A stretch of DNA of 64,000 nt from Nereocystis luetkeana (lineage: Eukaryota > Sar > Phaeophyceae > Laminariales > Laminariaceae): positions 8,896,698 through 8,960,697 of the forward strand of contig JARUPZ010000019.1 of assembly GCA_031213475.1 (NCBI GenBank), in the 5' to 3' direction. Every line of letters begins with the position of its first letter. Positions within the stretch are counted from its first letter, which is position 1. Both the position numbers and the translations under genes were made by a program. The notes below the pieces were generated by a model. It made no database searches and had not been told where the DNA came from. It was given only the letters and a program-made list of their open reading frames with translations. Shown piece after piece: positions 3,846 to 63,975 of the stretch.

Positions 3846-4399
3846 CCTTCAACACCAAACAGCAAAAGGTTGATTATAGAGACGAACGCAGGATAAAACG
3901 TGGCTGAATGCCCCGCGGACAAGCGGTTGTCCCGACACCACATGGAGGCAGCAGCCTAGTACGTTTTATGCTCGGCGTGGCTATATGAACTTCTATATCA
4001 CATGGCAAGGTCGAAGCGACGTTGATGCCAGTCCGACGCAACAATGGCAGAGTACTTGGATTATTCAATAATCTCTTGGATCGTTCGTAGTACCAGGTAT
4101 ACTTTACTGCAGACACAGATGTTATGGATGCATTTGTAAATTAGCAAGCACGAGGGGCAGCTTTATAGTATGGGCTGAACTGTGATGGGTCTGGCGCGCA
4201 GACTGCTCCAATGTGATATCAAAGTAATACCAGTGGGGTTTTGCATGTCTGATGCAGCTTTTGCAATATTCGGTGCAGTGATCTCCCCGCGCAAGCCAAG
4301 ACGGATTGCGACGACAGCGTCTGACCTGCACTCTTCATAGGTATAAAGCATTCACGCCTCGGATGACGTAGCACTGAACGTTTTATGTTAATGCTATGC

Positions 4400-5200
4400 G
4401 TCAGCGAAAACATCTCGTGACATCACGTCAGGACGTTAACTGATTTCTGGATTGTGTGATAATATAGTGTTAACGTGTTATGTTACTAGCGGGCGATCGC
4501 GTAGCGTTATATTATAGTTTTTCTTGATCCCGTATCGACCTCAGTTTATGTGTCACGGTGTTGAGAGTAGGCAGCCCATAGCGAATAACAGTATGTTGGC
4601 GTTTTAGCGGAATTCCCAGTGGCTATCGTAACACATGCTGGAGGGATAGCGTACATGGTCAATCAAACGTTAACACTATGTTAGCGTGTTCGCGACATCA
4701 GCCCGTAGCGAGCAACGCCATGTTAGTGTATCAGCGGAATGTGCACGTGCTACCGTAAGATACTCTAGACGGATGGCATACACGGCCAATTAAACGCTTA
4801 CATAACAACTATGTTAGTGTGTCAACGGAATCCTTAGAACTATCGAAACACACGTTAGAGGGATAAAGTATATGGCCAATATAAAACTAGCATATTGGTC
4901 CCGTATCAGCGGCAGCAGCAGTCCGTATCGAACGACGTTATATGAGGGTGTTAACGAAAGTCTTGCTACCATAACATACCTCAAACGGATAACGTACATG
5001 ATCGATAAAACACTAGCATTATGATGAGGTGTTCGCTCGTGTGCAATTTATGAAGTAACACAACTTAGCAGATAGCGTACATCCCCAATCTAACTTCAAG
5101 AAAACTTTACTGCAGTGCTAGCTCGTACGTGCGAGTATGCAGAACACGTTATAGATGGAGAACGTAATGGTGTTATAAATTAATATCGTACTGGCGGGGT
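4400..5200. repeat. Degenerate tandem array, spacing about 85-126 bp
   Basis: A block of the type GGATAGCGTACATGGTCAAT followed by CTATGTTAGTGTGT recurs near 4646, 4770, 4860, 4986 and 5070. Copies are diverged and unevenly spaced. No coding potential was seen. Confidence 0.6.
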
Positions 5201-7808: not shown

Positions 7809-10800
7809 CTAGCTGCCTTCGACGCCATCTGCCTCTCGAGCACGATTGGGGTGGGAGTAAATCGGCGAGGAAGGCGCAGTACCGCTTGCATCAACCAGAG
7901 CTTCGGCTCCCTCAAAAGACAACGAGGGGTCCACCGCCACGAGCGCCTCTGCCTGGTTGGTGACACGGGGTCGAACCTTGTCCAGGAACTCATGAGCATC
8001 AGCTACCGACTCGTAATTGTGGGCATAGCCCTGGCGCCCAGCCACCTCTGCTCGGTACCGGACCTGTTTAAAGCCGGTATGATTTGACCCATGGGAAGAA
8101 TCAAACGCCGACGATGGCGACTACACATGAGCAAAATTAAATGTGCTGGTAGCATTCATGGTATATCATTGCAGAAGTTCCAGGCTAGTCATTTGTACCC
8201 GATATTCACTCGGACATTGCAATGTTGTATCTGCTCCGCCCCATCCCTTTTTCAGCGGGGCCTGGATTTTAGATTGGAGAGCTCTGAGGTACAAAATATA
8301 ATAGAGCGTTCGTCATACTGCCGTGACCGTGATCGGTCGCATGCCATCAAGTCGTCTGCGAATCCAACATTTCATTGTTCTTTAAAAAATCGAAGCACAA
8401 AATAAATGAAGGCACCTACATGCAATTGCAGTACATTGCACTACAAACGTCCTTCGATGCAGCGCCTAAGCCGGCTGTGTACACATATCGTATATTGTCA
8501 ACATGATGAATGCGCGCGCGCCTTGTCACCCAACGATTATGCAACCTATCACAAGTGATGCTCACCTTGTTAAGGTTATCTCTCATGTCCGCCAATTGCC
8601 TTCGGAAGGAATCCTGGGTGGCCATCATGAGGCCGCAGATGTCTTCATCGAACTCTCCCGGTCCTGCACGCCGTTCCTGTGTAGTGCCTCCTGCGTCAAA
8701 CGAAAGAGGCTCTGTTCTCTCAGCGCCGTGCGTTGTGGGCATTTTCTCCGTGCAGCCCGAATCCTCATCTGCCGCGGATCACCCATCGCAACCCAAGTAA
8801 GGTTTTACCTCGCCGTACAACAAATAACACGGCGAGAGTATGAGTACGGCTGGTATGGAGACATCAAGACACGATACTTCGACAAGTACCGCTTTCCACA
8901 GTGCGTAGATGTTGTCCCAGCAAGTTCCATGCACGCACGTGGCACAGTCTAGAGATGGCGACGGAGTGTCGGTGGAGTCGGTAGTGCTCACATCGTACCT
9001 CGAAATATTACCAGGTACCAGGCATATAATATGTCGTGTTGAACAAGACCGTCAATTTCACGTTGTGGTCTACTCGCGACGGAGTCCGTTGTCAAACTTC
9101 CGGAGCCTTGTTTTGTGAGCGGCAAGGCACTTACCGCGTCTTTCGAAAGTTTTCGGGTTGGGAATCGCCGAAACAAATGCTAACAGACGGGTCAAAATAG
9201 GGCAGCCTTGTTCACTCACCTGGGGATAGAAACCGCTGCTGCACGGGTGCTGTTGCCTCAAGTGCCCGCCGCCAGGCCGAGCAATTATCTGACTGGGACT
9301 TCGCCATTGCAGCGAAGAACGTCTGTTGGGCATCCCGGAGACCAACATATGAGACGCAGGAGTCGAGAGGAAGTATTGGCAGGGATTTCGAACGAAACAA
9401 AGAGCATTTTGACTGCTTTGGTAACATGAACTCCGCAGCAACGAGGTAAAAGGTCTTTAACTACTGCTGCTTCTAACGAGTGTTGTCACCTGAAGGTAAG
9501 CAGGTGCACCGCGTGGCCCCAATCCCTGCATTCCCTCGTGATCATTCGGTTGGGCCACCTCGCCTCTCTTGTTTTCAAGGCTTCCGCTGACGTCATCTCT
9601 ACGTCCGACGCCAACGCCGTCGGCTTCAAGCCCCGTCGTGCCGGTGGAGACAAAACCATCGGTAGATCGAGCGCGGCGTCGGGACGGGGTGGTACCGGAC
9701 GACGATCGCTCCGCCGATGCTCCAGAATCTGCCGCAGGGCCTCGGTCAGTGTTGCGGTAGTTGGCTGGCATGTCGCATGCAAATCGCCCCCACTTCGCGT
9801 AAGGCTCCCCCTGTCTGTACCCCACACCATCTATTTGTGTTCCACTTGTCCTGTGGCCAGCGCTTACTGCCGACTCCGTGCCCACCATTCCTGGGACTGC
9901 GATATCGACTTGTACCGCTGCAGAGCTTCCCACCGCCTGTTGGCGTTAAAACAGACACCCAAGCAGCGTCGGCAAGAGGTGGACTCTCAGTGTTTCAATT
10001 CGATCGGTGAGCGCTGCTATTTCATTATGAGTCGGGATATCTGAGTAGACCCAACAATTGATCATATATCGGGCATTGCGGAGCGAGTAGACAACGCATT
10101 AAGATGGGCATCCAATGCCGCACAAGCACCAGGGCTAACGAATGTGCGAATTTCCTCCGAGGAAGCGATTCAGAAGGATGACAGAAGCTAACCCACCAGT
10201 GTAATGACAACTCATCTTGCAGCGTCAGCGGCATGTTCGACTATTAATGGTACGTACATCTCAGCCGGACGCCCTACACGGATATGCCCTCCTCTCACAC
10301 ATTGGGTCTTGTGACGGCCACACGTCGTAGTCGTGGCATAGTCACAGCAAGATACTTTGAATGGTTGCGTATATGCCTCAGTAAGAAAGACGAGATGAAA
10401 ATGTTCGCATCGTCGACATACAACACACACTAGAAGCCCTCCCATCATGTGACGCACTACTTCCAGCGTTTGATACTACCCCCCATCTTGCCTGTGTGCC
10501 GCAGCTGCGAAGATCAACGCCCCTCTCCGTGTCGTGCGCGTACTCCACAGATGCCACGCCACTAGTCCGCGAAATGGTATTTACTTTCATATCAGGGGGC
10601 CGTCCCGGGTCGTGCACTTCAGTAGAGCGATCGATTAGCACGCCCCGCTTGGATATGCCGTCAATGTCCGTAGCTCCCATCTTCCTATTTTCAGCACTGG
10701 CACCCTGGGTTTCGTCCCGTGTAACGTTTCGGTGAAGAAACGGTGCGACACCGGTGTCCGTTCGTTTTGTAGGCTCTGAGTCGTGGGGACCGCTGACAGC

Positions 10801-12435: not shown

Positions 12436-12691
12436 GGAACATGCAAACACCAAGAGTCGTAAGGTTCATGGGCGATGGTGGGTTCTGTAGGCGCAACGAA
12501 GGCCGCAGCTCGGATAAACATATATGTTGGTGATATGGGATAACCTACACATACTGCTGTACATTACCAGAAACTTACAGCAATAAGGACGAGGAAAACT
12601 GTGTCAGGCTGGATGTCAATTTTGAGAATGGGTGCGTTCTACACTGTTAAAGTTGTTTGTTTATGAAGGGTAAATCATAAACACCCTGTCA

Positions 12692-12974
12692 TGATCGATA
12701 CCTGGTACTCTGGAGCGTGACAGGCCTTACGCATTTAGGCGAGGTAAACAGAATTCCTGATCGTCTTCGGAAGGACTCTCGTGTTGGATTATATCAGGCG
12801 AACGAGGAGAGAGAGAGGGAAGACGTGTCCACCTCTGACGTCGGTCAGTCGTCGTAGTGATGGTTTCACCCAGTACCAAGATACCCCCGGCATAAACAAG
12901 CCTTCCTACCATATACGTATTCCACCGCACAAGACTGTGCGATACGTACAGCAGTACTCAGAGCATACTCAACA
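12692..12974 (-). repeat. 3' LTR of the copia element
   Basis: It aligns with 17,559-17,831 over its whole length. It carries an extra CCTGGTA at about 12,699 that the other LTR lacks. Confidence 0.9.
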
Positions 12975-15180: not shown

Positions 15181-15830
15181 TGACGTTGTCGGCTGATTGC
15201 TATTCCTTCACCGCCGCAAAGGTATCCGCATCCAGGAGACCAAGGATCTCACGCGGCATCGAATCGCACCAGATCGGGGCTTGCCCCGAGGCCATCGCCC
15301 CCGCATAGCTCGTGGGCGTCTGCATATCACTCGCCTGGTAGCCCGATAAATTCGGGGGGTCGCGGAGAGGCCGATCGTCGCGTAGCGCCGCTTCGATGTC
15401 CTCATGTTCCGCCATCATTGACACGAATGCAGGGCGGCCCATCATCGATAAACTCCCTAGGTAGTGACTGAGAGCCTGCTCCGACTCACCCGGCTGCAGG
15501 CCCTTTTCCCGGCGGATAGCCCTGTTCTGGCCTCTCGTACGCCCCGGCATCCGCACCTCCTCGAAATGCCGAAGCTCCCAGACAACATGCTGTGGTAACG
15601 GCGGCATTCCCGGCGACGACGCAGCAGGCGAAGACTCGGCAGGCGGCGGCAGTGGCGGCGGAGACCCAACAGGCGGTTGAGGCGGCGGCGGCGACGGAGG
15701 TCCCACACGCGGTGAAGGCGGCGGCGGTGATGCGGTAAGGGGGGATGCAACACACGGTGGCGCGGCAACATACCACACACCCGGTTGTTCCGGTGGCGTC
15801 GGCGCAGCAGCGGACGAAGTGGACTCCCCC

Positions 15831-16418
15831 GCTGGCTGCGGCGGCGCCACCAACGGGGTGCGACAGGTGTGCCCACGTCACGCCACGCGTGTAACAGATC
15901 GCACCGGTGGACGCCTTCAAGACCTTAAAACAATCGGAGGGGAGATTGTAACCGCCGTCCAGAAACTAGCACGCCACAGCCTGCGGGTAAGATTTCTGGT
16001 CCCGCATCATCCGCATGTACCCGGGCTGAAGGAAAGCAAGAAGCTTCAACTCCGGTCGGGACCCGTAGTAGGCCTCATGCGGCGATTTCATTCCGGCGTT
16101 TGCCGTGGTCGCAGATCGGAATGCATGAACCGCTCTGCGACCACGGCGAACGTCAGAAGGAAATCGCCGCATGAGGCCTACTACGGGTCCCGACCGGAGT
16201 TGAAGCTGCTTGCTTTCTTTCAGCCAGAGTACATGCGGGTGACGCGGGATCAGAAATCCCAGCCGCAGGCCGTGGCGTGCTATTTCCTCAACGGCGGTTA
16301 CAATCACCCCTCCGATTGTTTTAAGGTCTTAAAGGCGTCCACCGGTGCGATCTGTTACACGCGTGACATGACGCGGGCACACCCTCGCACCCCCTTCGTG
16401 GCGCCGCCGCAGCCAGCG
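15831..16418. repeat. Large inverted duplication inside the copia element (arms about 288 bp)
   Basis: Arms 15,831-16,119 and 16,131-16,418 are reverse complements with scattered mismatches around a spacer of about 11 bp that itself contains ATGCAT. Both arms encode the same end of integrase plus linker (KSPHEAYYGSRPELKLLAF, ASTGAICYTR), once on each strand. The left arm is in the orientation of the element; the right arm is inverted and sits where upstream integrase should be. Confidence 0.9.
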
Positions 16419-16628
16419 GGGGGGGGGAGTCCACTTCGTCCGCTGCTGCTGTTGCTGCTGCGGCGGCTGCTGTTGCTGCTGCTGCCCAGATCCTCCGTTA
16501 CCCCTTCCTTTCCTTCGGTTCCGTCCCCCGTCCTTGCCCCCATCGTCGCTGCCCGACACCCCGCGACCAGCGTCGGTGGCGATCAGGGCGTGAGCACTAG
16601 CCCCTTGCTCCTCCTTTCCCCCCTTCTT

Positions 16629-17092
16629 CCGCTACATCTCATGATAGGACTCCAGCGCCATTCGCTCAAGGTCCACTCTGGTCAAAGAATCACGCATGAT
16701 AAGTACGAGCTTGACAACCTCGTTCATAGACGAAATGCAACGAAGAATGTGACGGTTGTTTCAAGGGCCGTCTTGTGAACCCCCACTTCCCTCATTCTCA
16801 TGACAATAACGTACGCCCTAGAAGTACTAATTGGGGGACTCTTTGTCACTCATGGCCATTCCGCTACATCTCATGATAGGACTCCAGCGCCATTCGCTCA
16901 AGGTCCACTCTGGTCAAAGAATCACGCATGATAAGTACGAGCTTGACAACCTCGTTCATAGACGAAATGCAACGAAGAATGTGACGGTTGTTTCAAGGGC
17001 CGTCTTGTGAACCCCCACTTCCCTCATTCTCATGACAATAACGTACGCCCTAGAAGTACTAATTGGGGGACTCTTTGTCACTCATGGCCATT
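16629..17092. repeat. Tandem duplication, 2 x 232 bp
   Basis: Positions 16,629-16,860 and 16,861-17,092 look identical by eye. This lies between the gag remnant and the inverted duplication of the copia element and must be far younger than the diverged LTR pair, or else an assembly artefact. Confidence 0.95.
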
Positions 17093-17558: not shown

Positions 17559-17831
17559 TGATCGATACTCTGGGGCGTGGCAGGCCTTACGCAGTTCGGC
17601 GAGGTAAACAGAAGTCATGATCGTCTTTGAGAGGACTCTCGTGCTGGGTTATATCGAACGAACGAGGAGAGAGAGAGTGAAGGCGTGTCCACCTCTGACG
17701 TCGGCTATTCGTCGTAGTGACGGTTTCACCCAGTACCAAAATACCGGCATAAACAAGCCTTGCTATCATATACGTATTCCACCGCACAAGACTGCGCGCC
17801 ACATACAGCAGTACTCCGAGCATACTCAACA
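17559..17831 (-). repeat. 5' LTR of the copia element
   Basis: It aligns with 12,692-12,974. It ends in ATCGATCA on the minus strand, directly followed by CGCTAGCGGGACCC, where a primer-binding site would lie. I could not match that to a particular tRNA. Confidence 0.9.
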
Positions 17832-19000
17832 AGTCAGCGCCGACTGAGTGGCTAACTGGTATATCCCATACCGATATACTGCTTGATAGTCTAATAATTA
17901 GTAAGTAAACAAACAAAAGAACGAAAGAAATCTCGAAGTCGTATTTTCACTTTTTCCGGAAAAGAGAAAGCGAAATCAAGTGGCGAGAACCACGCTAAAA
18001 GAACTCTCAACCAGAGGGTCGAAAGTGGAGTGAACCACTTTGAGTAAAATAACGCACGACGGACTAGGAGGGGGGCCATATAGAGGAAAACCCAGACGCT
18101 GATTAGGGACTTGATCAACTGCAACCCCGAAGGATGTCATCGATGGGCTGACTGAGTGGCTCACTCAATGGTTTATCCTATTATACCAGGTATAAAACGA
18201 ACAAAACTCAGTACAATGACACCACAATTCCTTTTTTTTGTACCCGGTAAAAACTATTAATAAAAACGTAGCCTGTCTGTATCGTACCCTATGATTTGCC
18301 GTAACTCGTTTTCTTGATAGCCTGAGTACGAGTAGCGCACTTGTTTCTATCGCGGACTGAGGCGGCTACATCCAGCAGTCGTCCACTGGATTTTATTGTT
18401 CAAAAATGGGAGTGGAGAATGGATGTTTTCTACTGTGCTACAGTAGCTTCAGTACCAGTATACAACACTGCTGTACGAGTACGAGTAGTACAGCAGTACT
18501 AGTAGTAGCGTTCTTATTTCGTGTAAATTTCAGCCTACACGGCCTTCTTTACTCGTTTTCTTTTTCGTTTTCTTAGGTTCTCTGTACTGTATAATACCTG
18601 GTGAACTGCTTGTAGTACTACGTACTAGTAATTAATACTGTTTGTACTATTGATACTACTGCTGTTCAGTTGTACCTGGTATGTCAACAACAGTATTACA
18701 ATACGTACGTACAGTAGTAGTACCAGTACACAGCAGTAGTGCACACTTGCTTGCATCATATCATACGTACGAATATACCTTGGTACCAGGTAGTTCTTCT
18801 TTGGTCACATACATATATTTGGTTTGAACGACGACGAACTTGGACTCGACCCTGCCGTCTTGTTTGACTGAGCAGGCTGCCGTAGTTGGGCAACAGTATG
18901 AGTGTACACTTGCTTGCATCGCTTTGGTGTTACTATCTGTACACACTGCTGATGTACTATATTAATAGCCGTACTCGTACTCGTAGTTTTTCTTCGCTTA
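17832..19000. other. Non-coding sequence with TA-rich and triplet tracts
   Basis: No gene seen. The stretch around 18,145-18,200 resembles one terminal inverted repeat of the MITE at 24,445-24,614 (GCTGACTGAGTGGCTCA, then TATAAAACGAAC) but carries a TACCAGG insertion. The block 18,470-18,780 is dense in GTAC, TAGTA and TACC(A/T)GGTA motifs. Confidence 0.5.
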
Positions 19001-19001
19001 C

Positions 19002-19193: not shown

Positions 19194-19859
19194 TGCACAT
19201 ACGTGGGGAAAGGCGGCCACTCGCTCTAGAGTCTGAATGTGCTGCTGTGTGACTGAGCGGGACTGATGGACTGGCGTGCTGCTGTGAGCGCTTCGGTTAC
19301 ACCGACCATCTACTACGTAGATCTTGTGTACTAAAAAAAACGAAGATCGAGCGTACAAAAACACGTAGATCGTGGCGTACAACGATGACAGTCTACAACT
19401 GTGAACTGACAGGTGTGTGCGTGCTCTTCACATTATTAACCGTTCTTTCTACCCGTCGACATCCGGCACAACCAGTGTCCGTGCCGATTCTTCAATCCTG
19501 GAAGAGATACAAGTTATGTGGCCACAAACTACGCCACAGAGATACTACGTTGCCACGTACCACAGATATTAGGTCCGGTATACCAGGTATACTATAAGGT
19601 TCCCCTTCGGGATGTGGGTGGCTTGAAATCCGGGGGGTGTCGCAAGTTGAAAAGGGAGATGCATGTAAAACCCTCGCACCTCTTGTTTGAGTAAAAATGA
19701 TCTCGGAGTGAACTGTGAGTCATGGGCTACTAATTTATTGCTAAAAGCGAAGAGAAGTAGTCTAGTCTTCGATGCTCTCGCATATTTTGGCGTATAGGAG
19801 AGACATGGACTACTATATTGCTCAAAGGAAAGCGTAGCACTAGGAAGGAAACTGATGTG

Positions 19860-22149: not shown

Positions 22150-22570
22150 AAAAACAAAGGGTAGCAGCAAGGAAAACAACCTGCGCCAGCAGCAACAGCA
22201 GTAGCTATTATACCGTGATAGTGTGCAGTGCAGCAGAGTCATCAGCAGGAGCATCAAGATAAGCCACCGTGTGACACGGGCTAAAAAATACTTTGGGCAG
22301 CACCAAAAAAAGGCGCCAACAGCAACAACAGCAGTAGTAGCAGCTATACCGTGATTGTGCGCAGCAGTGTGCACAGCAACAAACAGCGGCAGCAACAACA
22401 GGAGCAGCAAGATAAACAACCGCGTGGCGCGGGCAAAAATAAAATTGGTTAGCAGCAAGAAAAGCAAATTGTGCCAGCAACAACAGGAGTAGCAGCTATG
22501 TCGCGTGATTGTGCGTAGCAGTAGCGGCAGCAACAACAGGAGGAGTAGCAAAATAATACCAGGGTAAGCA
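22150..22570. repeat. Tandem array, three copies of about 140-155 bp, CAG/CAA-rich
   Basis: Copies are anchored on ACCGTGATTGTGCGCAGCAG-like segments at about 22,212, 22,347 and 22,502, each followed by an AGCAACAACAGGAG-type tract and a GCGTGGCGCGGGC-like segment. Long Leu-rich frames on the minus strand are low-complexity by-products. Confidence 0.8.
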
Positions 22571-24075: not shown

Positions 24076-24106
24076 GATTGTATCTCTGTGGATGTGATGT
24101 TCACGG

Positions 24107-27062: not shown

Positions 27063-27198
27063 GTTTTTTCTTGTGAAAAAAACGCAGAAAGCGTGAGTTT
27101 CCAAAAATCGACGCAAGAAGTCGACGAGGGAAGAACACAGGCACCTTTCGGACACGAGTGAAAACATACCTGGTATACCAGTACCAGGTAACTGAAAA

Positions 27199-46900: not shown

Positions 46901-49900
46901 TCGCAAACCTGACCTGAGACAACAACTAAAGTTACCATCAAAACAAAGCAAAAAAGGTTGAATCCCTCTCTCTCTCCTCTCTCTCTCCCTCTCTCTACAT
47001 CTTGTGACCATCGCTCTTGTTAGCATACAGGACTAGCCCCGATCCAACCCTACAGGAGTTTCCACAAACCCAAACGCTCTTCTCTCCCCCGGTAATTCAT
47101 CCAATCGTCCCAGGTGTTATAGAGAGCGACCCCGACGGAGTATTTCAGCAATCCAAGCAATCATTTTTTCGGTCCATTTACACTAATTGCAATGAGTTTC
47201 AGAGATCAAAACGGATCGAATCATACCAGGGTTTTCACAAACTCATGCGCCCCATTTTCTCCCTGGTTATGTTTTCTATTGTCCCCGGTCTCGTATAAGG
47301 CGACCCCGTTGAAGATGGCCCCAACGACGTACTTGACATATCAAAATTCCCTATTGTGTGTCCATCACCACTCCGTTGTTGGGAGATCGGATATCGGAAC
47401 GAACCGAATCATACAGGGGCCTCCACACACTCAACCATCAGATGCTTTTCGCGATGTCTCCTGTTGTTTTGTAGAGAACGATCCCGACGGCATATTCAGT
47501 AAATTATGTAAATTTTCCCTCTTCTGTCCATCCTCATTTCCTTGTTGTGAGGTTGTAATTGATGAAATCATACAGGCCTTACACCCAAGCGCCCCCTTTT
47601 CGCCCCTGTCGATGCTTTTCTACTGTCCCCGCTTTCGTAAAAACGGCCCCAATTGCAAACCTGAAACTCCAAATTATCCCGTTTTTGGTCCATCTCCACT
47701 TCTTTGGTGCGAGATCGGAACGGGTCAAGTTACATATACAGGGGTTTTCACACACGCAAGCGTCAACAGGTATCCTCCGGAAATTATTGCCACTGTCCCC
47801 GGTATCATAGAGGATGGCCCCGGTGGAGCAACTCAGTATCTCCAATGCTCTCCATTTTTCGGTTTATCGCCACCAATTTACTGTGAGATTACGGATTGAT
47901 CGTTTCCACACAAACCATCAAGCACCGATTTATTCATCTACACCAGGGCTATCTGTTGCTGTCCCCGGGGTAGGAGAAGAAGGGACAGGCCCCGATGGAA
48001 GCCTGTGCCAGGGGTCGGGCACGGAGCCTACTTGGTCCTCTATGTGTCTCAGTAGTACCTTAGGCCCACCAGTACCAGGACAAGTAAACTCATCAACGAG
48101 CTGCCCAGAGGAGTAGAGAAGCACCGTGGGGACAGCGTGGATGTCCAGCATCCGGTGCACCTCTGGGTTACCGTTGAGGTCGATCTCGTAGAACATTGCT
48201 CCAGACCCAGCGAGGGCGTGGGCCTCTGCCAGCAGGCGCAGTCGATGTCGAAGATGGTGGCAAGATCGGCACCAGGGCATGTGCGTCATTACAGTCACCA
48301 GCTCTCCCGACAGAGATTGGTCCATCGCATCCAAATAGCCTTGAACTCCGTCTGTGATCGCCGCAACATATCGATAGTCATCGACACTACCGTGGGGCTC
48401 CTCACTCGCCGGCGCACTCGGGCTGCTTGGTCGCGACATCCCAGCAGACAGCGCCCCCACCACGTTCCTTCTCGATGTTCGAAGAATTCGGCTAGCGCCC
48501 CACGCACCAGAAGAGGACTTGTAGAACGATTTGGAGGAGGATCTGGAGGAGGATGTGGAGCGTTTTGAGGATTGAAGGAGGAGAAGAGAAGGAGGAGGAG
48601 GAGAAGAGGAGCAGGAGGAGGAGGAGGTGAGGGCGGGGTGTGCGTACTCATGTCATGCATGACCATAGTCGTATACCATAGACCCTCGTATACCTACCAT
48701 GCCGGGACGGAGCACATCGAGTTTTCACCGACAAGGCAGACATCGCTTGGGCAGAAAGAGAAGGAGGAGGAGGGGGCTACTCCTTGTCTACATGCACCCA
48801 TTCTATCCCGTCAGCGTGGGGGCACACCCATGAGCGCACCCCGGCCCTTCCTTTCTTTCAAAATACCTGGTATTACTTTGTGAGTTCGACTCGGCACGCC
48901 GGTAGAGTTGGGCTATGGGGACGCATGGATGATCAAGAGGAACACGAGGTGCAGGTCAGCACTACCCGGACTGACTGGCATTGCGGAGGCCGCCGCAAAC
49001 ACGCCCAGGGTTGAACCATCAGTGGCGGCCGCGGTGATAGCGGCCACCAACACCCAGGCCTTGGGAGAGGCAAACAACACAGAACCGCGAGGCGAGCCTT
49101 CGCCCAAAAGCGGAGCAAACGGACGTGAGGTAGAACAGTAGCAGCTTGTGGCAATGCGCAATAAAAAGAACATGGCTCGCAATGAATAGAAAGAAGACAG
49201 AACAAAGACAAACAAGAAAACCACTCACTGGCGAGGAAGTCGGTACCATCGATTGAACCCATGGAGGGTCGCGCAGGAAGAGAGTCCTTAGCGAGAACAT
49301 ATCGTATACGTTCGTAAAGGCATGCACGCATGTTTATGTGTGATTTTTGAATTGACTAACGAGCCTTCGCCTGACAGCGGAGCAAGCAGTTGTGATGTAG
49401 AAGAGCAGCAGCTTGTGGCAATGCGCATTGAGATGAAGGTTCGCAATGAATAGAAAGAAGATAAAACGAAAGCAAACAAGATGAACCCCCACTCGCGAGG
49501 AGATATTTACCGTCGATTGAGACCAATGGACGGGTGGCGCAGGAAGCGGGCTCTTGGGGCTCATCCAAACGGAGAAAAACAAAACCCTAAAAATAAGGAC
49601 TTTCCTCGTTTTCTCTTTTTAGGAAAAAAGACAATGGAGTACAAACGAAGGATACACAGGAAAAACAAAAGCTAAACTCCAAAACGAAAACGAATCGACT
49701 GTCGAGGTGGAGCACCAGCACTGACTTATCATCCAGCTGCGGTGGAGGTGGCGCCCAGCCCTGAAAAAAGAGGGGAGTGTGCCCACACGGCTAGTCGACC
49801 ACACTCTGCTGCTGCAAGAGCACCGGTGTTCTGGAGCGCGAGATCTGCGCTCGATAAAGTACGGGTGCTTTTCAAGCAGCAGCATCACTTGCTACAACAG

Positions 49901-51457: not shown

Positions 51458-51490
<33 letters not shown>

Positions 51491-54400
51491 ACTGCTCCTG
51501 CTGCTGCTGCTACCGCAGTATGGTGGAATTGAAATAATACACGAACTGTCATTCTGTCGCGTTCCACAAGCAAAGGTGGTACGAGCACGAGTACGAGTAC
51601 TAGTCCTTTCGGGACGACGCATCCTCCACTACACCAAGCGAGCGAAAGCGTAGCAACGCCGGCGGCCCGGTGGCACAATCGAACGCCGCTCGTCCGCGTT
51701 ATACTCCAGGTACACCTCTCGAGACTCTGTCGTGTTGTGTACAGCGAGCACCATGGTGCGTGGAGGCATGGAAGATGCTCGGTGTTTTAAACCTTGGAGA
51801 TGCGTTCTGCGTCGGGATAATGCTCGGTGCGTGTAGGCCAATGAAACAAAAGACGAAAATCACGATGGTGCGTGGAGGCATGGAAGATGCTCGGTGTTTT
51901 CCAACCCTGGAGATGCGTTCTGCGTCGAGATGATGCTCGGTGCGTGTAGGTCAATGAAACAGAGAGACGAAAATTACCGCAACTTTCGATCAAATGCTAC
52001 CTTCCCTAAAAGTACTTTTTTGCCGTTTGTTTTAAAATTTACTTCGGGTAAAAAATGAAGACGTATAAGTAAAAAAAGAAAAATTCGCAACCCCCTTACG
52101 TCTCGATATTTTTTTAGTCCCTTTGTACCCTCCCGCCCCCTGGCCTGTATACATAGAACTACTTACAGATATATCACTCTCTGAGTGTGCTCGGTTGGTA
52201 CATCCCTGGCCTCTCAGAGCTCCCACTCGCCTCCTTTTATTACTCGCCGGACCTTTTCAGCGGGTCTTTGTTTCCTCCATTTCTCTTGGCACCTTCGGTT
52301 ATTTTTTCCTTTCTTCTTATTTCGCTTCGTGTGCGTGCGTGTACTCGGAGTACGTCAACGCGGGCGAGCTCGCGGGTGTCAGCGAGTGCTGGCGGGTAGA
52401 GGGGGGGTTGAAAGGAGCGCGGTCGCCGTTTTCGTGCCTAGGCGTCGCGTGTGCCTCGAGACACGAGTGAAGCATAAATGGGCTCTATTTGGCCTCCATC
52501 AGCAGGCTTCGATTGAGGATGTACGAGTCGATAAGGGTCGTCCGGGATTGCAAGGTAAGATTCAAACAGTGCTTATTTTTGCGACCAGGCCGAAGTTCAC
52601 AGAGAGAACTACGCAGTCTGAGCGCCAACATTGTCGAGCGGGCGAACGAGGGCCACGGTGAGCACAAGGCTTCACGCGAGGCGGGCGACGGGGCTCACTG
52701 TGGCGGAGAGGGAGGAAAGCTCTACCCGGACCGAATCGTTGGCGAGGTGGTAGGGAGAGGGGCGGGCGGTGTATGAGGCTAAGAGAGAAGCTCTGCTGTT
52801 CGATCTTTTTTCTTTTTTGACTGGTGCAAGGTGTTCCAATCGGGCAGAAAATTATTACATGAGAGGGGACGGGGGTTTTATTTTCTTCAAGAAATTTTCG
52901 GTTTCATTTTCATTGTTTTTGCGGTGCTGCTGTACTGGGCTGTGCTCTCTCTTTCGAACATACCTGGTACAGCGTATCAGAAGAAGAGAATAAATACAAT
53001 ACCTGGGGTATGTACGTACGTACTGCATGCGAGCGAGCATAGCGGGAGGAATCGCCCGCGACGCGAAGCGTATGTGGCGTCCGAGCTGTTCTCCCCTGAA
53101 GCATGGCGGCGGGACTCTTGAGATTATCAAGTCGTCACTTTGCAACTACAATAATAAAAAAAGACTACATTCAATCAATCATGGACCTCTGTCCGCTGCG
53201 CATAATTTCATGGACTTTTCCATCCTGAGCGAGCGTAGCGGGCGGCGTAGGCCGCCCGCGGAGCGAAGTGCCTTGTATCATACCTGGTACGAAGTATACA
53301 TATACAAGGTCCCCCTGCGGGATGTAGGTATCGTGAAATCTCGGGGCCGTCGCAAGGCGAAAAGGGAGTCACAGGTAACACACGTATGGCTGTTCTTGGT
53401 GGAAACGCGAGCCATGGGTTAGCGTATTTCTCGAAGGAAAGAGTAATAGTAGTGAGCGGGAACTGAGTACTACTCTTTCTGTGGTACTTGCTACTTTACA
53501 TGCACGCGGTACCATGGGTTGACTACTATAGAAACTGTTATTATACACCACTGCCACTACTACGCAGATATAATACGGGTAGAAGGAGCACGCACTCTAC
53601 AAAATACTACCTGGTACACTACTACTACTACTACTGACCACTAACTATACTAAGTACCACTGCTAGAGAATGACCAATCTCTCATACAATACAGACAACC
53701 TCATGCTAAACAGAGAGGTCGAGGAACCACGTGGTACCATGGATGGATTGGGGCATGACTACTATATTTGTTACACTATACACCACTGCCAGTAATACAT
53801 ACTACACTACAGTAGTAGTACCTACTACTACGACTATACTTTTAATCTTTGTAAATGTACAGGCCACCTATTAAATACGGTTGAGGGCATCTACTGCTAT
53901 TGGCCACGTAGAAGAACAACATGCAGACGGTACAACAGCAATAGCGGACACCACAACGACTACGACTAATGCTCCTATTTCTAGCAAGGTGGTACTATAC
54001 TGCTATTGTACAGACATTAACAGAGAAGCAGCATACGCTCGGTACCATGGGCTACTATCAATATTAATACTACAACTATAACTATTATATACTCTACTAA
54101 ACACTTCAGAATTATATACCTGCGTGTCGAAAACAGCGTCAGTAACGCAGAAAGGCCAAATAACGAAAAACATAACTATTATTAATAGTAGGAAGCAGCT
54201 TATCTGTATGTATGTATTGATATGCAGGCATACGTACGGTTGGGGCACGATGGAAAAGTTATCTGCATCTATTTGTCATGAAAAAAAATAACGATTGTCA
54301 AATAAGTACTCACGGCAACAGCACAGCCGACTCGTGGCAAAAGCAGGAGAACTCTACAGCAGTGTCACAATTATTAACAACAATAGGCAGCAACAACAGG

Positions 54401-57400
54401 TCTACACATGATTGAGGGCCCCATGAAAAACATATCTGCACTTGTCCGGAATTTGTTCTCTCTACGTTTAAATTAATGGCTGCCAAAAGCAGTATAATCT
54501 ACTTATGGTTACAGCAGCAGACTCGTGGCAACGGCAGCACGGTACTACCTACTACCAATGCTACTACTACTACTACTGATACTTACTGCTACTGCTACTA
54601 CTATTAATACTACTACCAATACTACTACCACTACTACTACTGGTAGTACTGCGCTACTGTTAATATTACTGCCACTGCTACTACTACAATATTAATACTG
54701 CAACAACTATATTAATACTGCTCTCCCACTCCTCCTGCTACCTACTATTACGGGGGACCATAAATAATAGGACCTATGGCATACATAAAAACCTATACAT
54801 TTAACCATTTTTACTAACAATATTTGGTCCTATTAGCTATGGTCCCCGGTAATACTATTTCTACTACTACTATTAATACCATCTAATACTACTACTTTAC
54901 TACTACAACTACTACTACTCGTACTACTATGTCAAATGCACACCGAGACAGGGGGGGTACACGGAGACGGGCGGCAGAATGAGCCTGGCTCTGTGGCTCT
55001 TGCCCGGTTCAATTACCTGCTGCTGAGAGCGTGCGACTGGACAACTCGTCAAGTATGATACCTACATACACATACAGTAGATACTCGTACCTACTACCAA
55101 TTTCCTCCAGGTAGACGAACCGAGGGAGCGAGCTTGTCCCCACGTGGGTACTGGGTGTGAAGTGTGTGGTGTACGTCAAAGGGCTAGGTGAAACATACAT
55201 GACGCCCAACAGACGTATAGTGCTGCTGCTGTAGCTGAATGTTTTGATAAAAACCAAAACTGGACAAGCGGGCAATTTCAAGAGTGTTGATGTTTTCAAC
55301 GCGAAGAAAATTCAGCAGAGATAATTATTTTTTGCTGAAAGTGCTCGTCGTATCACACGGGCATTTTAGTACCATTACAAAATCCAGCCAGGCAGTCGGG
55401 CAGTGTGGGCCATGCCCGGTGCCAGCAGTACAGCGAGGCGGGAGGCAGCATGGACCTGGCTCTGTGGCTCTTGTGTCGATACCATGTCCCGCGTGGGCTC
55501 ACACGGCCCCCCATTGGTGGATCCAGGAAACCTTTGCGTCATTTTTTATAGTACATGCCTGGTATGGTACGTTCTTCGTGTTTGTTTCTCAAAAGCGGAC
55601 TAACTGCTACCAGTATAGGTTATCGTACTGATAAGCCGTGAAACGGAGATCTTTATAGGAATGCATCGGTTCCTCACTATGGACGTTCGGCAGCTAATCA
55701 CTGAAAAATAGATACAGCACATAATATACGTACTTTTGGTATGGATTCGTTGCTCATGTCGATGCTCGTGCCTCCGGTTTCAGGTTCTGAGATAGGCCAG
55801 CGGGCCGACGTCTTGACATACTTCTGCGCTTAGGCTGGCCGCACGAGCCCTCGAGCAGGCCACCTGGCAGGCCCCCTCCAGGTGAGGTCGAGGTAGGCGG
55901 ACACGGTAGTGTGTCGATAAAAGAGTCTCGAAGCGCGGAGCGCCCTCGGAGTTCCAGTGCTGCGTCTACACACATCTGGGTATCAAAAATATTTATATAT
56001 AGGTTGGGCTGGCGTCGGTTGGCGACGACGCTGAAAAACACGCTTCTCACTGCGTGAGCTAGACAACTAGCGCGCCGCTGTTATGTTTTTTTTGGGGCGG
56101 TCACGACGGCTGGCGGCCAAGATAGATGATTTGTGCGAGGTGGAAGAGCTTTCCTCCGCAAAAGGGAAGTTATTGAATCACTTACTGGTAGTGTGTACCT
56201 GGTATATGGTAAGGCACCCACGAGTCAGTTGCACAGTATACTCTTTGCTGTCTCTGCAAGTGACCACACCACACCAGAAAACAAACCAATTAATTCGAAG
56301 CTGTCATCAATTGCACGTGAACCTCCAAGCGGTTCTTAGTCGGATGCAGCTCACCCTTCATGCGACTCGCCCAACACCTAACGACCCTTCGCGCATGGCG
56401 CAAGATATGTCTGGCTGGTCGGTGAAAACCCGACGTGCTCCGCCCCGGCATTGTAGGGATGCGAGGGTCTATGGTCATACGACCACGGTCATGTATGACA
56501 TGAGTACCCCCACCCCGCCCCGCCCCGCCCCCCACGTAGCTTTGAGGTTGGAGAGTGTAACGTGCTATGATGGGTATGAAAGGTATAGCTATTTTAGGTA
56601 GCCCTGGTCAGCCAGTTGTCAGGAGCGATCCTATTTATTTTCTCACAGCGACAATGCATATATCCAGCATCTGGTTCTGCTACGACTACGGCGACTGTCG
56701 TTTTTTTGTTGCGAACGAAACAACTTTTTTCTGCCCTTTTTGCAACCGAACGGAGTTTCCACATATTCCAAATATTGGGTATTCACAGAATGATAGAGGA
56801 GTATACAGAACAAGTATACAACTGTTGTTCAATTCCATACGATACGACTGTTGCCTAGCCGGCAGTATAGAATGCGGGAAGAAACATGTACCTGGCATAA
56901 AGTATGAGCGAGGATACCCCCCTCGCGTGTCCCGCTGTGGATGCTCTGGCTAACATATTAATAGTGGGGAGACTTAGCTTTGGGGTTGCGAGAGCCGTCG
57001 CGTAGTGGGTGCAGTCGTCAACGATGTAGGGGGGCCCAATGGCTGAATAACTACTGCAGTCCCTTGCGTAGCCACGTGTGGTTTTGTTTTTATGATGCTG
57101 TTGTAGGGTCTTACATACTGGGGGGGCGCTGACAGCCCCCCCGAAGTAATGGGGGGCCAGGTGAGATTCGAGCTCACGTCCTCCTCTCCCCTCCCCCGCC
57201 CCTTTTTGAAAGAAGTACGCAACGAGACCTCGCGCTGAACCAAGGACCCACCCCCCCCTGTAGAGTGCATTTGCCGAGGATCGATGTGGGAGTTCAGAGT
57301 ACATTTTCACCGAGGGTCGGCGTGCATGTCTAGAGTATATACCTCCGCCGAGCTCCCCCCCCCCCCCCCCCCACTCTCCACCCCTCCCTCGATAATCGGC

Positions 57401-60400: not shown

Positions 60401-63400
60401 GAATGTGCGTACGTACCTTGTCGGCCAGAATAACCTCCGCTGGGGTCAGCATGCGGTCCAACGCGCGTAGGCGGCCGTCGGGACGTGAGAAAAGTTCAAA
60501 GGCGTTGGCGTCCACCGTGTAGATGAGAGGAGCCATGAGTTCTCGAAGGTTGCCCACCTGTCAAAAGCATGGACAGTAAGTGGGCGGTTCGAGGGCTCAA
60601 AGCACAGTTTTTGCGGCACGACCACCTACTGTACATTCGTGACGCTCAAATTCGCAGTGCCGGCGTTGGATGAGGGATCCTGTCGTCCATGACACCGATC
60701 GCAAACGCAGCACCAACATCGTCGTACCAGGGGCGGTTGTCACCCTGGTTCTCTCTCCGCTTAGACAACATCGCGGGACCTGCGCGTGCTTGGCGAACGA
60801 CCAGCCATATCAAACCGCGGCACACGGTTTCCTGAAGAAAACATCGGGATTTTCACCTCAGAGGCACTTCACTACCTTCGGTGCCTCTTCAGTGAGGGTG
60901 CCATTCAACTTCATCGGCAGCGGGGGTGCCTTCTAACGTGGGACTGGTTGCCTACAACAGTTGGCAGCAGCAATCTGCAGCATCACGGCCTGTGCCCGAC
61001 GAACAGCACCCGACCGACCGCCAAGACGCACTTCCGAAGCTCACCTTGACCGAGCAGCCGTTAACCGACGCCGAGGACCCCTTTCCGCCTACCGTGCGGG
61101 TTACTATCAGCCTCCGCCCGTCACCCTCCACTGGCACGCCGAAGTGCTCGAGCAGCTGCCACACACGTCACATCACCGCAAAACAGTTCGCGCTTTACCC
61201 AGAGAGACAAGACAAACGGGGCGGCGAAGAGCGTGGCATGCGCAGAGTTTCCGTAGGACTGCCGCACAGCCTCAATATTGTTGGTCGTCCTTAACTATAC
61301 CAGGCACAATTTACAGGAAAATACCAGGTGTATTTTTGCGGCATTGAGTTAGGTTCTAAGCTTGATGGTTCCAAGTGTGCCTGCACAACCACTTGCGATC
61401 GCTGGCGATACATGCCACAAGCAAAGCATCGCACGGAAAGAACAGAAAAATCAGCCTCAAGAGCGGCGCCATTGTTCTTCTCCTTCAACCTCGCTTAGGG
61501 GCGCCATGCAAGAGCTTGTTGCGCTCGAGAAAGACAAAATCGCAGTCGCACACGAGATGCTCGTAGGGAAGTAGGGGTTAACCTGCCTGGCTGTGATAAC
61601 TACTTCTGCTGGTGCTGTTTGCTGTTGTGCTTGTGCTCTGTAGTTTAATATGAGCTGTCCTGGAACACATGTTTGTATTTAATAGTTACCTTTGCTGTTG
61701 AAGAGCGGTGTACTTCGCCAAGCTCCAGATGCAGTTGGACCGTCGCTGTCGGCCCCTTATTTCCGACCATGTCCGCCCCCCTCACCCGAGCCCCCGCCGC
61801 TAGGCTGAAAGCGCTGGAGATGAGACTCTTGCCCGCTCCTGTTTCGCCGGTGATGGCGATCAGACCACGCCCGAGCTGAACGATGCGCAGCATCCAAGCG
61901 AGGGTACAAAGGGGCAGACGAGGTCCCAGGAAAGCTTTTAATAAAGATGTTGGTCAAGGCTGCAGCAACGCTTCCAATGGTATACCTCGTACCAGACATG
62001 CACATAAATACGTGGATTGATACCGTGCTGCCTGGACTAGAGGCCCGAAATCCTTGCGCCCACAGGTTCCACGAGGACTCAAAACATATTGCCAGATGCC
62101 CTGGTATGTACCAGGTACAGTATTATACACAGTTGCAGAGCAGAGAGCACCAGCCAAGTCGCGACTTTTCCGGAACTCCCAGAGAACGGCGGTGAGCCAC
62201 AGCAGACGCTTAAGGCGTAAGAGGGAGATATCTAAATGTAAATGCCACAACGTCAATCATTTCATTGACTTCGAGAGACACCCGTTACCTGGTACATATG
62301 TCCGAGACACGCGGCAGTAGGCCCTAGTTTTTCAGGCACGCTGCAGGCGCTTTCAGGCACGCCTCAGGCGTTTTTGTACATTCAGGCAAATTCGGGCAAA
62401 CGCCTCAATTGCTGCATGTACCTGCAACGTGCCTCATATTTTCAAAGACATTGTGCCTTAGACATTGCTCGAGACGTGCCTGAAACCTCATTCCATGCTA
62501 CCTTCAAGTTGTTTTCTTTCAAAGGGTGGAATGTCTGAAAAAGGAAAAAAATACCCTACACCTACTCAACAAGACAGGCACGGAAACAGTGGTTCAGGCA
62601 CGCCTGATCCAGAAAAGCTAGTTCAGGCCTTTTTTCAGACCCTACGCACACATATATATACATATACATATATCCCTTTTCCCTCATTTTTGGAGTTCCG
62701 GACTAACGGCGTTATTCTTTAGTGCCTGAAAGGCGGGGTGGTCACGCCTTGATAGTGAATCGTAGATATTTACGAGGGTTTTGCGCGTGGCGCCAAAAGC
62801 CCACCCTCCGACCTGGATCCTCACCCGAACCCTATGCCAGTGATCAGTGTTTGGATGCTGTGCTTGGGAAGACTGAAGGTTGGTTTGGCCGGCTCGGGAT
62901 GCTGTAGCTAGTGAAGACTTTAGGTTAATAGAGCCGATTATAATATACCACCTGGCGTAAATATGTCCGCTCAGGCGAACTTCCTCAGACGTGCCCGAAG
63001 CCCGTATAAAATGATGCTGTTCAGGGTGTTGTCACGAAACTCTGAGGGATTTCGTTCCCGCCGGTGATATTATTTTCGGCTTCGGCTAACCGCGGCCACC
63101 AACCCGACCGCCAACTCTAAACCCAACCCTAACCAGAGGCCTGCTCCATGGGTGTGCTAGCTGGACGTCGGGCTTGGAAAGGCTCTATTTGGTGTTCGGG
63201 CACATGTAAGGAAGTTCGCCTGAGCGGGCAGATCTACACGATGTCACAATATACGCCTGCCCCCTTACAGGAAGATGCACTATCAATACAAATATTCATA
63301 CCAACACGTGACAGAGTAGTTTAGGCATGCCTGTTTTATAAAAGGTACAGCAGTACCTCGTTCGCCGTCGTGGTTCCCAGGCACTTTCGCATGCATGCCG

Positions 63401-63975
63401 GCATGCCTGTAAGGTACCTGGTACCTGGTAAGGGCCTACGTAAGTGGCACTCATTGCAATTGCGTCGGAAAAAACGGGAAAACTATACCAGGTACCAGGT
63501 ACGACGTACCAGGTACGTAATCATCTCTATCATGACTGCTGTACGTCAGTGTACGTACGTACGTACGTGAAAACGTGCCCGTCGGGTTGTGCCAAGCCAC
63601 ACGCAGACTATACCCCCTTACCTCGACTTGCACGGAGTCCACCATGGCAAGGTTTTCCACCAGAACCTTCGTGACTAAACCAGCTTCACCCACACCCAGC
63701 GGTAGCATGGAGCCCCCGTTCACCTCAGCATCGTCGCTGTTGTTGCCATCCCTGGCGCTCTCTCCGATCAGAACTGAGGCTTGTTTACTTGACCAAGAGT
63801 GGAGCTCACTGCCAACGGTAACCCGATGCCCCGAGCGGCTATCAATACTTTCGCAGCGCCGTCCAGCGAGCACGTTTGCGCACCGGTGTTTGCTTCGCAG
63901 GCCCCATGGTGCCTTCGCGTCCCCTCCAATAGAGGAGGAGGGCGTGACAAAGCATACGGGTGGAAGAATGCTCGC
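40942..63975 (-). CDS. recN: RecN-type DNA repair ATPase, twelve visible exons (5' end outside window)
   Basis: Minus-strand exons: 63975-63622, 61875-61714, 61155-61045, 60557-60417, 60098-59923, 59676-59403, 59214-59108, 44178-44088, 43578-43397, 42971-42899, 42364-41951, 41304-40942 (stop TGA). Every junction keeps the codon phase, giving about 815 residues. Seen in order: VTKVLVENLAMVDSVQVE, Walker A ITGETGAGKS, a long Glu/Leu-rich coiled-coil arm, LSRKHGVPPERL, VASSGEKSR (ABC signature), a Walker B/D-loop segment LYDEIDAHVGGRTAVAVG, and VVVTHTASVAALADQHLVV (switch His). Known: RecN is an SMC-like ATPase of bacterial double-strand-break repair. In a eukaryote it probably acts in plastid or mitochondrion. 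The first visible exon is a long low-complexity lead-in, compatible with an N-terminal targeting region. The signature SSGEK differs from the usual SGGEL. Confidence 0.95.
45375..45640 (+). repeat. Dispersed repeat family, copy 1 of 3
   Basis: Contains ACGAGGTGTACGATATGGTG and GAGTGCACATCCATGAACCC, also found at 58,775-58,990. Its right end matches 48,760-48,900. All three copies lie in the long RecN intron. Confidence 0.8.
47020..48000. repeat. Degenerate tandem array, about six units of 160-180 bp
   Basis: Each unit carries a core like GTCCCCGGTNTCGTAGAG followed by CGACCCCGACGG, centred near 47,108, 47,283, 47,452, 47,632, 47,801 and 47,961. Other shared words are TTTCACAAACTC-like and CGATCAAATCATACAGG-like segments. 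The last unit overlaps the 3' end of the thioredoxin-like coding region. Confidence 0.75.
47930..48439 (-). CDS. Thioredoxin-fold protein nested in a RecN intron
   Basis: The 169-residue frame from the ATG at 48,439 contains MPWCRSCHHL (CxxC active site after Trp), an AMFYEIDLNGNPEVHRMLDI strand-helix segment and IHAVPTVLLY with the cis-proline typical of thioredoxins, then a Pro/Ser-rich tail. Expected role: thiol-disulfide exchange. The frame stays open upstream to a stop at about 48,648 and reads as Leu/Ser runs then basic Ser/Lys/Arg-rich sequence, which would suit a plastid or secretory presequence, but it has no ATG. An upstream exon, or the ATG at 48,439, are both possible. No intron was seen. 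It lies on the same strand as its host gene. Confidence 0.8.
   Translation of the reverse strand: MSRPSSPSAPASEEPHGSVDDYRYVAAITDGVQGYLDAMDQSLSGELVTVMTHMPWCRSCHHLRHRLRLLAEAHALAGSGAMFYEIDLNGNPEVHRMLDIHAVPTVLLYSSGQLVDEFTCPGTGGPKVLLRHIEDQVGSVPDPWHRLPSGPVPSSPTPGTATDSPGVDE
48760..48900 (+). repeat. Dispersed repeat family, copy 2 of 3 (partial)
   Basis: Shares CTACTCCTTGTCTACATGCA with copy 3 and CTTTGTGAGTTCGACTCGG with copy 1. At about 48,866 it carries TACCTGGTA where copy 1 has only a short A/T stretch. Confidence 0.75.
49075..49560. repeat. Tandem duplication of about 260 bp, diverged
   Basis: GCAGCTTGTGGCAATGCGCA, AATGAATAGAAAGAAGA and a GGCGCAGGAAG-like end occur in both 49,080-49,300 and 49,345-49,560. 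Some frames through them are open but resemble nothing known. Confidence 0.8.
51753..51980. repeat. Tandem duplication, 2 x 112 bp
   Basis: ATGGTGCGTGGAGGCATGGA starts both copies (51,753 and 51,865). They differ at only a few positions. Confidence 0.95.
52000..57100. other. Intronic sequence without recognised genes
   Basis: Contains several triplet-rich tracts, of which 53,600-54,930 (CTA/TAC) is the largest. No exon with a recognisable domain was found on either strand. Confidence 0.5.
53600..54930. repeat. CTA/TAC triplet-rich region
   Basis: Many short runs of CTA, TAC and ATT triplets, densest at 54,540-54,760 and 54,860-54,930, separated by unique sequence. Confidence 0.8.
57155..57250 (-). 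other. tRNA-like pseudogene or SINE head
   Basis: On the minus strand, GTGAGCTCGAATCTCAC forms a perfect 5-bp T-arm with a B-box-like loop, and TGGTTCAGCGCGAGG resembles an A box. The acceptor and anticodon arms do not pair convincingly and the spacing includes a G-rich stretch, so a functional tRNA is unlikely. Confidence 0.35.
57508..58180. mobile_element. Probable MITE of about 670 bp
   Basis: Ends resemble each other as inverted repeats: AGGGTGGTCCCTGACGAACA on the left and, reversed, AGGGTCGCGTTCCTAGCCAA on the right, both followed by a run of about nine A. Inside, CACGATTCGTGACA-type palindromes recur (57,575, 57,660, 58,090). No coding frame. Confidence 0.55.
58230..58440. repeat. Degenerate tandem repeat, about 80-bp unit
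   Basis: Successive blocks like GAATCTGATTTTGGTGTCTG, then CAGTATTCGAGAATGTT; three copies, diverged. Confidence 0.6.
58517..58598. repeat. Tandem duplication, 2 x 41 bp
   Basis: GGCATTGTGTTGATTCCCGA starts at 58,518 and again 41 bp later; copies look identical. Confidence 0.95.
58775..58990 (+). repeat. Dispersed repeat family, copy 3 of 3
   Basis: Matches 45,375-45,640 from ACGAGGTGTACGATATGG to the GGCCCTTCCC end. It lies about 100 bp inside the donor of the long RecN intron. Confidence 0.85.
62966..63229. mobile_element. 264-bp MITE or hairpin element in a RecN intron
   Basis: CCGCTCAGGCGAACTTCCT occurs at the left end and, as its exact reverse complement, at the right end, followed inward by GTGCCCGAA on both sides. 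The inside is non-coding. Confidence 0.75.

Follow-up and report, generated by a model that had tools for sequence, protein, structure and literature searches.

The genome of the brown alga Nereocystis luetkeana carries a 9-bp sequence, TACCWGGTA, whose copies arise as clean insertions of CCWGG plus one TA (7 bp in all) at TA dinucleotides. The motif is probably a scar left by the excision of a cut-and-paste transposon that behaves like Tc1/mariner elements, targets TA and has 5′-CCAGG ends; neither the donor element nor its transposase was found in our searches. We analyzed a 64,000-nt stretch (hereafter the window; contig JARUPZ010000019.1:8896698-8960697) of the 465-Mb assembly, in which an earlier note had described the motif as a mobile footprint, together with loci sampled elsewhere in the genome. 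The observation is real and strong and the footprint reading well supported: the excess of the motif, the clean 7-bp gains at TA, the target preference and the spectrum of variants were each seen directly.

The window holds 36 exact copies, the three dozen or so of the earlier note, against 0.40 expected and a maximum of 3 across 100 dinucleotide-preserving shuffles, and none of the 36 lies inside the 19 stop-to-stop open reading frames of at least 200 aa (the two lists being matched by eye). The suggested genome-wide excess was likewise borne out, with 182,395 sites across the assembly, or one exact copy per 2.6 kb; the pattern read in reverse, as a control, gave 1,744. A 282-kb sample, made up of 20 stretches of 10 kb from hand-chosen places, two of 9 kb around DDE_1 genes and the window, contained 121 exact copies versus 3.0 under a second-order model, the density ranging unevenly from 0 to 13 per 10-kb stretch. 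The "A or T" forms that the earlier note had distinguished are one 9-mer in two orientations, TACCAGGTA being the reverse complement of TACCTGGTA; because strand symmetry forces their totals to be equal, these counts are uninformative, and we dropped them as an argument. One-mismatch copies were also in excess (138 versus 65 expected in the 282-kb sample), which implies decay of ~6% per site and, as a rough estimate, perhaps twice as many total events as exact copies. If the copies are neutral, such a number would need just a modest per-genome excision rate over a long time. Pairs of motifs that share a TA numbered 15,917 assembly-wide versus 2 for the control pattern. A scan of viral contigs for the tandem motif returned 9 contigs with one place each, which we regard as chance.

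Comparison of occupied with empty sites established that copies are gained by insertion, not substitution. The 3′ long terminal repeat (LTR) of a copia element in the window reads GATCGA-TACCTGGTA-CTCTGG, with the copy at its edge (12699-12707), where its 5′ counterpart near 17,564 (GATCGATACTCTGG, approximately 17560-17576, + strand) reads GATCGA-TA-CTCTGG; and an outer arm of a miniature inverted-repeat transposable element (MITE) reads GGA-TACCTGGTA-GACC (24462-24470) where the internal arm near 24,546 reads GGA-TA-GACC. Both are 7-bp gains at TA. A third comparison, at a TACCAGGTA copy in the same outer arm (24484-24492; GAGCTATACCAGGTACTCAG versus GAGCTACTGAG), shows a difference of 9 bp, part of which could be a TA-repeat difference; the internal arm (approximately 24540-24570, + strand) lacks both insertions. 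The three comparisons on which the earlier note had built its case are thus all in the sequence, the third less clean than the others. At a further copy, TACCAGGTA at 21468-21476, a relative at 21,908-21,958 (74% identity) is also 7 bp shorter.

We extended this comparison by BLAST to 134 motif copies, requiring both flanks to be at least 80% identical. Homologues were found for 18, four of which matched solely their own locus fetched twice or a near-identical duplicate. Among the remaining 14 informative copies, nine had a relative exactly 7 bp shorter; the other five had relatives 7 bp longer (a double copy), 5 bp shorter, 6 and 8 bp shorter, 1 bp longer, and of the same length. Control TA-N5-TA words behaved differently, with 7-bp-shorter relatives for 4 of the 179 that had homologues and same-length relatives only for 106. 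Across 40 copies of the copia LTR, the exact motif was present in two (the window 3′ LTR and locus L072), at different TAs, and at L072 34 of 39 aligned relatives were 7 bp shorter. The flanks of the youngest occupied/empty pair (locus L020:1556 versus L004) are 98% identical, and activity therefore continued up to fairly recent times. Mobile insertion at TA, as the earlier note proposed, is accordingly upheld by repeat families, and the duplicated TA is what Tc1/mariner/IS630 scars are expected to leave.

An abundant MITE (TTACGGGGGACCATAG...) offers the same TA at thousands of loci. Exact matches to the 20-bp empty site number 16,304 (8,241 + 8,063), and loci where a TA-N(0-30)-TA insert fills it number 600 (289 + 311). 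Among the 100 inserts listed of these 600, CCTGG accounted for 40 and CCAGG for 13, followed by CCCTGG (7), CCGG (5), and CCAGGG, CCAG and CTGG (1 each); single-base departures from CCWGG (4); multiple copies spaced in 7-bp steps (4, and one CCGG-CCTGG besides); other short or mixed inserts (5: CC, GG, ATGG, ATGCCTGG and ATACCTGG); and 14 that resemble slippage, duplications or chance. All 57 of the TA-N5-TA inserts in this list were CCWGG or one base off. Orientation is biased at this site (CCTGG to CCAGG, 40 to 13, p 0.0003), and we dropped a comparison of CCA with CCT here, as the MITE itself holds TACCATA. Separately, CTCCGGAG (3 of 100) and CTCCGAG (1 of 100) may represent a second footprint type at the same TA, which would fit CG-joined 5-nt CTCCG overhangs.

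The sites into which the motif has gone are themselves distinctive. Measured against 13,520 control TAs, the 160 flanks of 80 isolated copies (no other CCWGG nearby) had T directly before the TA in 8 cases versus 31 expected and another TA at -7 in 33 versus 9.5 expected (about 3.5-fold), with bias detectable as far as position -10. In this mirror-averaged profile, in which both flanks are folded together, the preference is AT-rich and symmetric, as expected of Tc1/mariner/IS630 elements, and looks like that of a transposase target. Since each copy brings a TA with a second TA 7 bp away, the same preference may account for part of the excess of TA-sharing pairs.

The imperfect copies narrow down the ends of the putative element. 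We enumerated the joins available to two identical 5-nt 3′ overhangs, with CCAGG and CCTGG as alternatives. Fully overlapped, CCAGG overhangs pair at four positions, leave one A-A mismatch and yield CCAGG or CCTGG; a one-step slip yields CCAGGG/CCCTGG, and trimming of one base from each yields CCAG/CTGG. CCTGG overhangs would instead yield CCTGGG/CCCAGG and CCTG/CAGG. Across the window and sample loci, the CCAGG-predicted TACCAGGGTA occurred 8 times, in 8 unrelated contexts, versus 0.84 expected (one of these, at 22557-22566 on the + strand, lies in the window and fits a one-step slipped join), and its CCTGG-predicted counterpart TACCTGGGTA once versus 0.84; similarly, TACCAGTA occurred 32 times versus 10.0 expected and TACCTGTA 17 times versus 13.1 (p 0.039 and 0.002 for the two contrasts). 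Because the variants predicted by CCAGG are enriched and those predicted by CCTGG not or hardly so, the ends can be narrowed to CCAGG. In the same loci TACCGGTA was seen 14 times versus 5.0 expected, which fits loss of the mismatch. A 4-nt CCAG overhang would account for the main product and for CCAG, but not for CCAGGG. One dominant product with minor variants is what end-joining of terminal bases would give in the Tc1/mariner/IS630 group, and the joined bases here presumably derive from element ends. Also in these loci, TACAGTA/TACTGTA shows a ~2.4-fold excess (108 versus 44), perhaps from Tc1-type CAG footprints or simple repeats; CAG was found in 0 of the 100 MITE-site inserts listed of 600.

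We propose the following sequence of events, in which the transposon, the 5-nt length of the cut, its 3′ polarity and the mismatch step are inferred. A Tc1/mariner-like element, long active in this brown-alga lineage, would insert at TA within a TA-rich symmetric target. At excision its transposase would cut one strand at the border of the element and the opposite strand 5 nt further in, leaving a 3′ overhang, 5′-TACCAGG, on each flank; the 3′ polarity is assumed because known Tc1/mariner elements cut in this way, according to the part of the literature drawn on here (PMC8151067). The two CCAGG overhangs, which can pair with each other everywhere but in the middle, where A faces A, would then anneal and be ligated, and the A-A mismatch could be resolved in either orientation to give TACCAGGTA or TACCTGGTA, leaving the site 7 bp longer than before. 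Slippage or trimming at the join would produce the rarer CCAGGG/CCCTGG and CCAG/CTGG, and loss of the mismatch CCGG. The new TAs would in turn be good targets, so that runs may lengthen in 7-bp steps.

Several results weigh against this reading. No transposon with TACCWGG ends and inverted repeats was seen in 24 loci and the window, and no CCWGG-ended family was present among those listed of 253 TA-flanked inverted-repeat pairs from 26 loci and the window. Among 100 of the 958 TACCAGGG contexts that bear the target signature no donor end was seen either, a read-out that can detect only donors with G as the sixth base. The Pfam profile DDE_3 had 0 matches in the genome and was positive in 3 of 14 control genomes; Transposase_1 also had 0, as it did in every control; and of 28 DDE_1 matches, two loci were read with wide flanks, none being convincingly tied to CCAGG ends. 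The TACCWGG...CCWGGTA element that the earlier note envisaged, with its transposase, was therefore not found in the part of the genome searched, save for one weak candidate: a 6.1-kb segment around a DDE_1 gene at locus L031, whose TA-flanked ends match at 19 of 23 positions and both begin with CCAGG (counted by eye). No other exact copy of these ends exists, and both resemble decayed double footprints. The dominant footprint of 5 bp departs from the 2-4 bp quoted for Tc1/mariner and the 0-4 bp for pogo-type elements in the passages drawn on here (PMC7913693, PMC9976928); the tests favoring CCAGG over CCTGG are modest (p 0.039, 0.002); and TACCTTGGTA/TACCAAGGTA, in excess at 4 versus 0.63 expected, is predicted by none of the enumerated joins. 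At the MITE site, 20 of the 600 occupied copies were fetched; for 18 of them the closest relative was another occupied copy, and part of the occupied copies may have been inherited. Arm-matched clustering was nevertheless not above chance in a test with shuffled labels (1 of 4 versus 2.0 by chance, and 16 of 16 versus 12.7, with just 3 and 4 exact-site empty copies). The inserts in these 20 copies lie in both arms (4 and 16) and both orientations, and mean identities were similar (occupied-occupied 71.4%, occupied-empty 71.5%, empty-empty 72.5%). We conclude that at least several of the MITE inserts are independent, and that the donor may be rare, divergent, extinct or outside the assembly.

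Other candidates for the donor or its ends were rejected. A perfect end match at L009 (7236-8535) turned out to be one footprint that an inverted satellite-like repeat carries in duplicate. Several of the 100 listed TACCAGGG contexts form pairs or small groups that have upstream sequence in common too; in 10, CCAGGG is followed by TGGCAGAG or a near match, seven of these also with a common upstream heptamer. The three that we fetched are pieces of a ~138-bp tandem repeat with common upstream sequence, which is not present in the other fetched loci. A 22-bp mini-element in the window (TACCAGGTGTCAACACCTGGTA at 36,925), considered as a possible template, was dropped because the pattern TACCWGGTGT-N(0-30)-ACACCWGGTA has just 11 sites in 465 Mb. 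In passing, we noted two adjacent units of a ~138-bp repeat containing TACCAGGGTGGCAGAGCTCTGCC in L105 (G000:C1:13012880-13013280), with relatives elsewhere (including L106 and L107) at 83-92% identity, and a DDE_1 gene that is contiguous at L029:1221-1897 and 99.7-100% identical to two segments 1.3 kb apart at L030 (2666-2953 and 4288-4682), like an intron-less retrocopy.

The earlier note had offered two readings. Its excision footprint is supported, with CCAGG rather than CCTGG ends; for the other, a minimal self-spreading unit, no positive support emerged. In that case CCWGGTA, 7 bp long, would enter TA sites on its own, either through a trans-acting enzyme or because the motif is copied, and no larger element would ever have occupied the site. 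The scans made, which found no donor element, are in keeping with such a unit, as is the number of TA-sharing pairs, which at 15,917 for 182,395 copies lies, by rough arithmetic, 6-12 fold above random re-targeting. However, the pair excess may stem from the target preference (TA at -7 about 3.5-fold), runs in 7-bp steps are explicable by a re-targeted TA, and a self-inserting unit predicts neither the imperfect forms at the same TA (CCCTGG, CCAGGG, CCGG, CCAG, CTGG, CC, GG) nor the bias toward CCAGG over CCTGG among the variants. Because it does not predict this spectrum, we consider it unlikely; that we know of no source for a free 7-bp unit also counts against it. Its enzyme would have to cut TA-rich sites as well as existing copies and seed new ones, with the imperfect forms as errors of the process, an improbable arrangement; if true, CCWGGTA would be the smallest self-propagating nuclear DNA unit.

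The large number of events, with few or no donor copies seen, and the low-copy DDE_1 genes with open frames would also suit DNA cutting by the host itself or by a domesticated system, for instance a programmed excision at TA sites, in place of a parasitic transposon. We think this quite unlikely, as no such excised segments were seen and brown algae have, to our knowledge, no germline/soma split of the programmed-excision kind. That the motif belongs to the terminal repeats of some abundant family, a MITE or another kind of repeat, is very unlikely: some copies do sit in repeats, but outside the 9 bp isolated copies have just the target preference in common, no CCWGG-ended inverted-repeat family was seen in the loci scanned, and the mini-element pattern occurs at 11 sites genome-wide. 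Finally, a short, near-palindromic and very abundant motif invites comparison with HIP1, the highly iterated palindrome of cyanobacteria, and could be kept abundant by selection or biased mutation. Such a motif would arise without insertion, whereas the gains seen here are clean 7-bp insertions at TA rather than substitutions; the occupied/empty pairs contradict it, and exact and one-mismatch copies resemble decay from a fixed start at ~6% per site, which leaves it exceedingly improbable.

The remaining copies in the window, to none of which a strand is assigned, are spread along its length. Single exact copies read TACCAGGTA at 4091-4099, 18184-18192, 18784-18792, 19581-19589, 26866-26874, 29325-29333, 36958-36966 and 62109-62117, and TACCTGGTA at 18673-18681, 26808-26816, 37308-37316, 38267-38275, 38399-38407, 38705-38713, 48864-48872, 52961-52969, 53281-53289, 53608-53616, 56196-56204 and 62286-62294. 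After the TACCAGGTA copy at 9009-9017 comes a second, degenerate one (TACCAGGCA at 9016), and the CCAG variant TACCAGTA at 27176-27183 is flanked by full copies on both sides (TACCTGGTA at 27167-27175 and TACCAGGTA at 27182-27190). Double copies with a shared TA are found at 30649-30664 (TACCAGGTACCTGGTA), 63415-63430 (TACCTGGTACCTGGTA) and 63486-63501 (TACCAGGTACCAGGTA), the last followed, 14 bp beyond the preceding copy, by TACCAGGTA at 63507-63515. Degenerate CACCAGGTA shares a TA with a full TACCTGGTA at 37,047 (37040-37055) and with a full TACCAGGTA at 46,491 (46484-46499). Of three overlapping runs that had been described, those at 30,649 and 63,415 stand as such, and the one at 37,047 is a full copy sharing its TA with a degenerate one.

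Other features of the window and assembly were recorded alongside. A thioredoxin-domain gene is 76% identical to its Ectocarpus and 70% to its Ascophyllum counterpart over the aligned part; the named sources among the 120 relatives listed of 510 for the copia fragment are Ectocarpus and Ascophyllum, and a phage search with this fragment gave no match. In or near the copia element lie long self-complementary stretches (15804-16449, 88.7%; 32580-34182, 74%) and an exact 234-bp tandem duplication (16627-17092), while 20400-21800 holds a diverged minisatellite-like array with TCTGTATGATC words and local self-matches. Elsewhere, one 25-mer occurs 23 times on one strand at ~31-34 kb spacing in G000:C29:785088-1507595, which looks like a tandem array of ~33-kb units, and G000:C4:445205-1062712 (L009, L025 and L026) is a duplicated, partly inverted region with several recurrences, in which one footprint site reads TACCTGG or TACCAGG depending on the copy, the remaining 25-mer being identical.

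If the footprint reading is right, few traces of mobile DNA in this genome are as numerous as these small excision scars, each 7-bp scar would shift a reading frame, and scars alone can tell the history of a cut-and-paste element that has itself become rare or disappeared. One genome would then amount to a natural end-joining experiment in which the same break has been repeated very many times. Searches for TACCAGGTA, TACCTGGTA, TACCWGGTA and CCWGGTA as whole words gave no match in the literature covered, outside which most subscription journals lie, and no comparable case was apparent there from titles and abstract openings, so that publication elsewhere is possible. A paper on transposons in Ectocarpus (PMC12477816) uses none of the terms footprint, excision and palindrom in its main text.

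Known TA-targeting elements nevertheless provide close parallels. At its excision sites, Sleeping Beauty targets TA, leaves terminal element bases on the flanks and is repaired mainly by end-joining to a CAG footprint, as the cited portion of the literature describes (PMC8151067); the earlier note's statement that no system of this kind had been described was thus too strong. The present motif resembles it in the TA target and, on the footprint reading, in the end bases left behind and the repair by end-joining, and differs in its 5-nt CCWGG (versus a 3-nt footprint), its ~182,000 exact copies and a donor that was not found. ZB leaves footprints of 0-3 bp, against a superfamily range given as 2-4 bp, and the pogo-type Passer 0-4 bp; both, in the portions of those papers drawn on, share small variable TA footprints with our case, and ZB favors a palindromic AT-repeat target (PMC7913693, PMC9976928). 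In rice, occupied and empty sites of DNA transposons were compared much as here, but the excisions, in the part of that study cited, mostly left deletions and filler DNA (8 of 94 putative events were perfect; PMC4423477), in contrast to the single dominant clean product in Nereocystis. The GC clusters of yeast mitochondria are likewise short palindromic insertions, rich in GC and accompanied by short direct repeats, although, from the portion of the source consulted, they are organellar and their units are tens of bases long (PMC4478555). If the footprint reading holds, the 5-nt stagger of the transposase would exceed what footprints of 2-4 bp, the range cited for the superfamily, imply. The Sleeping Beauty overhang self-pairs around one mismatch to give TAC(A/T)GTA, and the mariner element Mos1, whose ends start CCAGG or TCAGG beside TA, has a 3-nt overhang that leaves 3-bp footprints; its family profile, Transposase_1, had 0 matches in this genome and 0 in the controls. 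Set beside these systems, what is new in Nereocystis is the scale and the 5-nt signature, the kind of event, a Tc1/mariner excision footprint, being already known.

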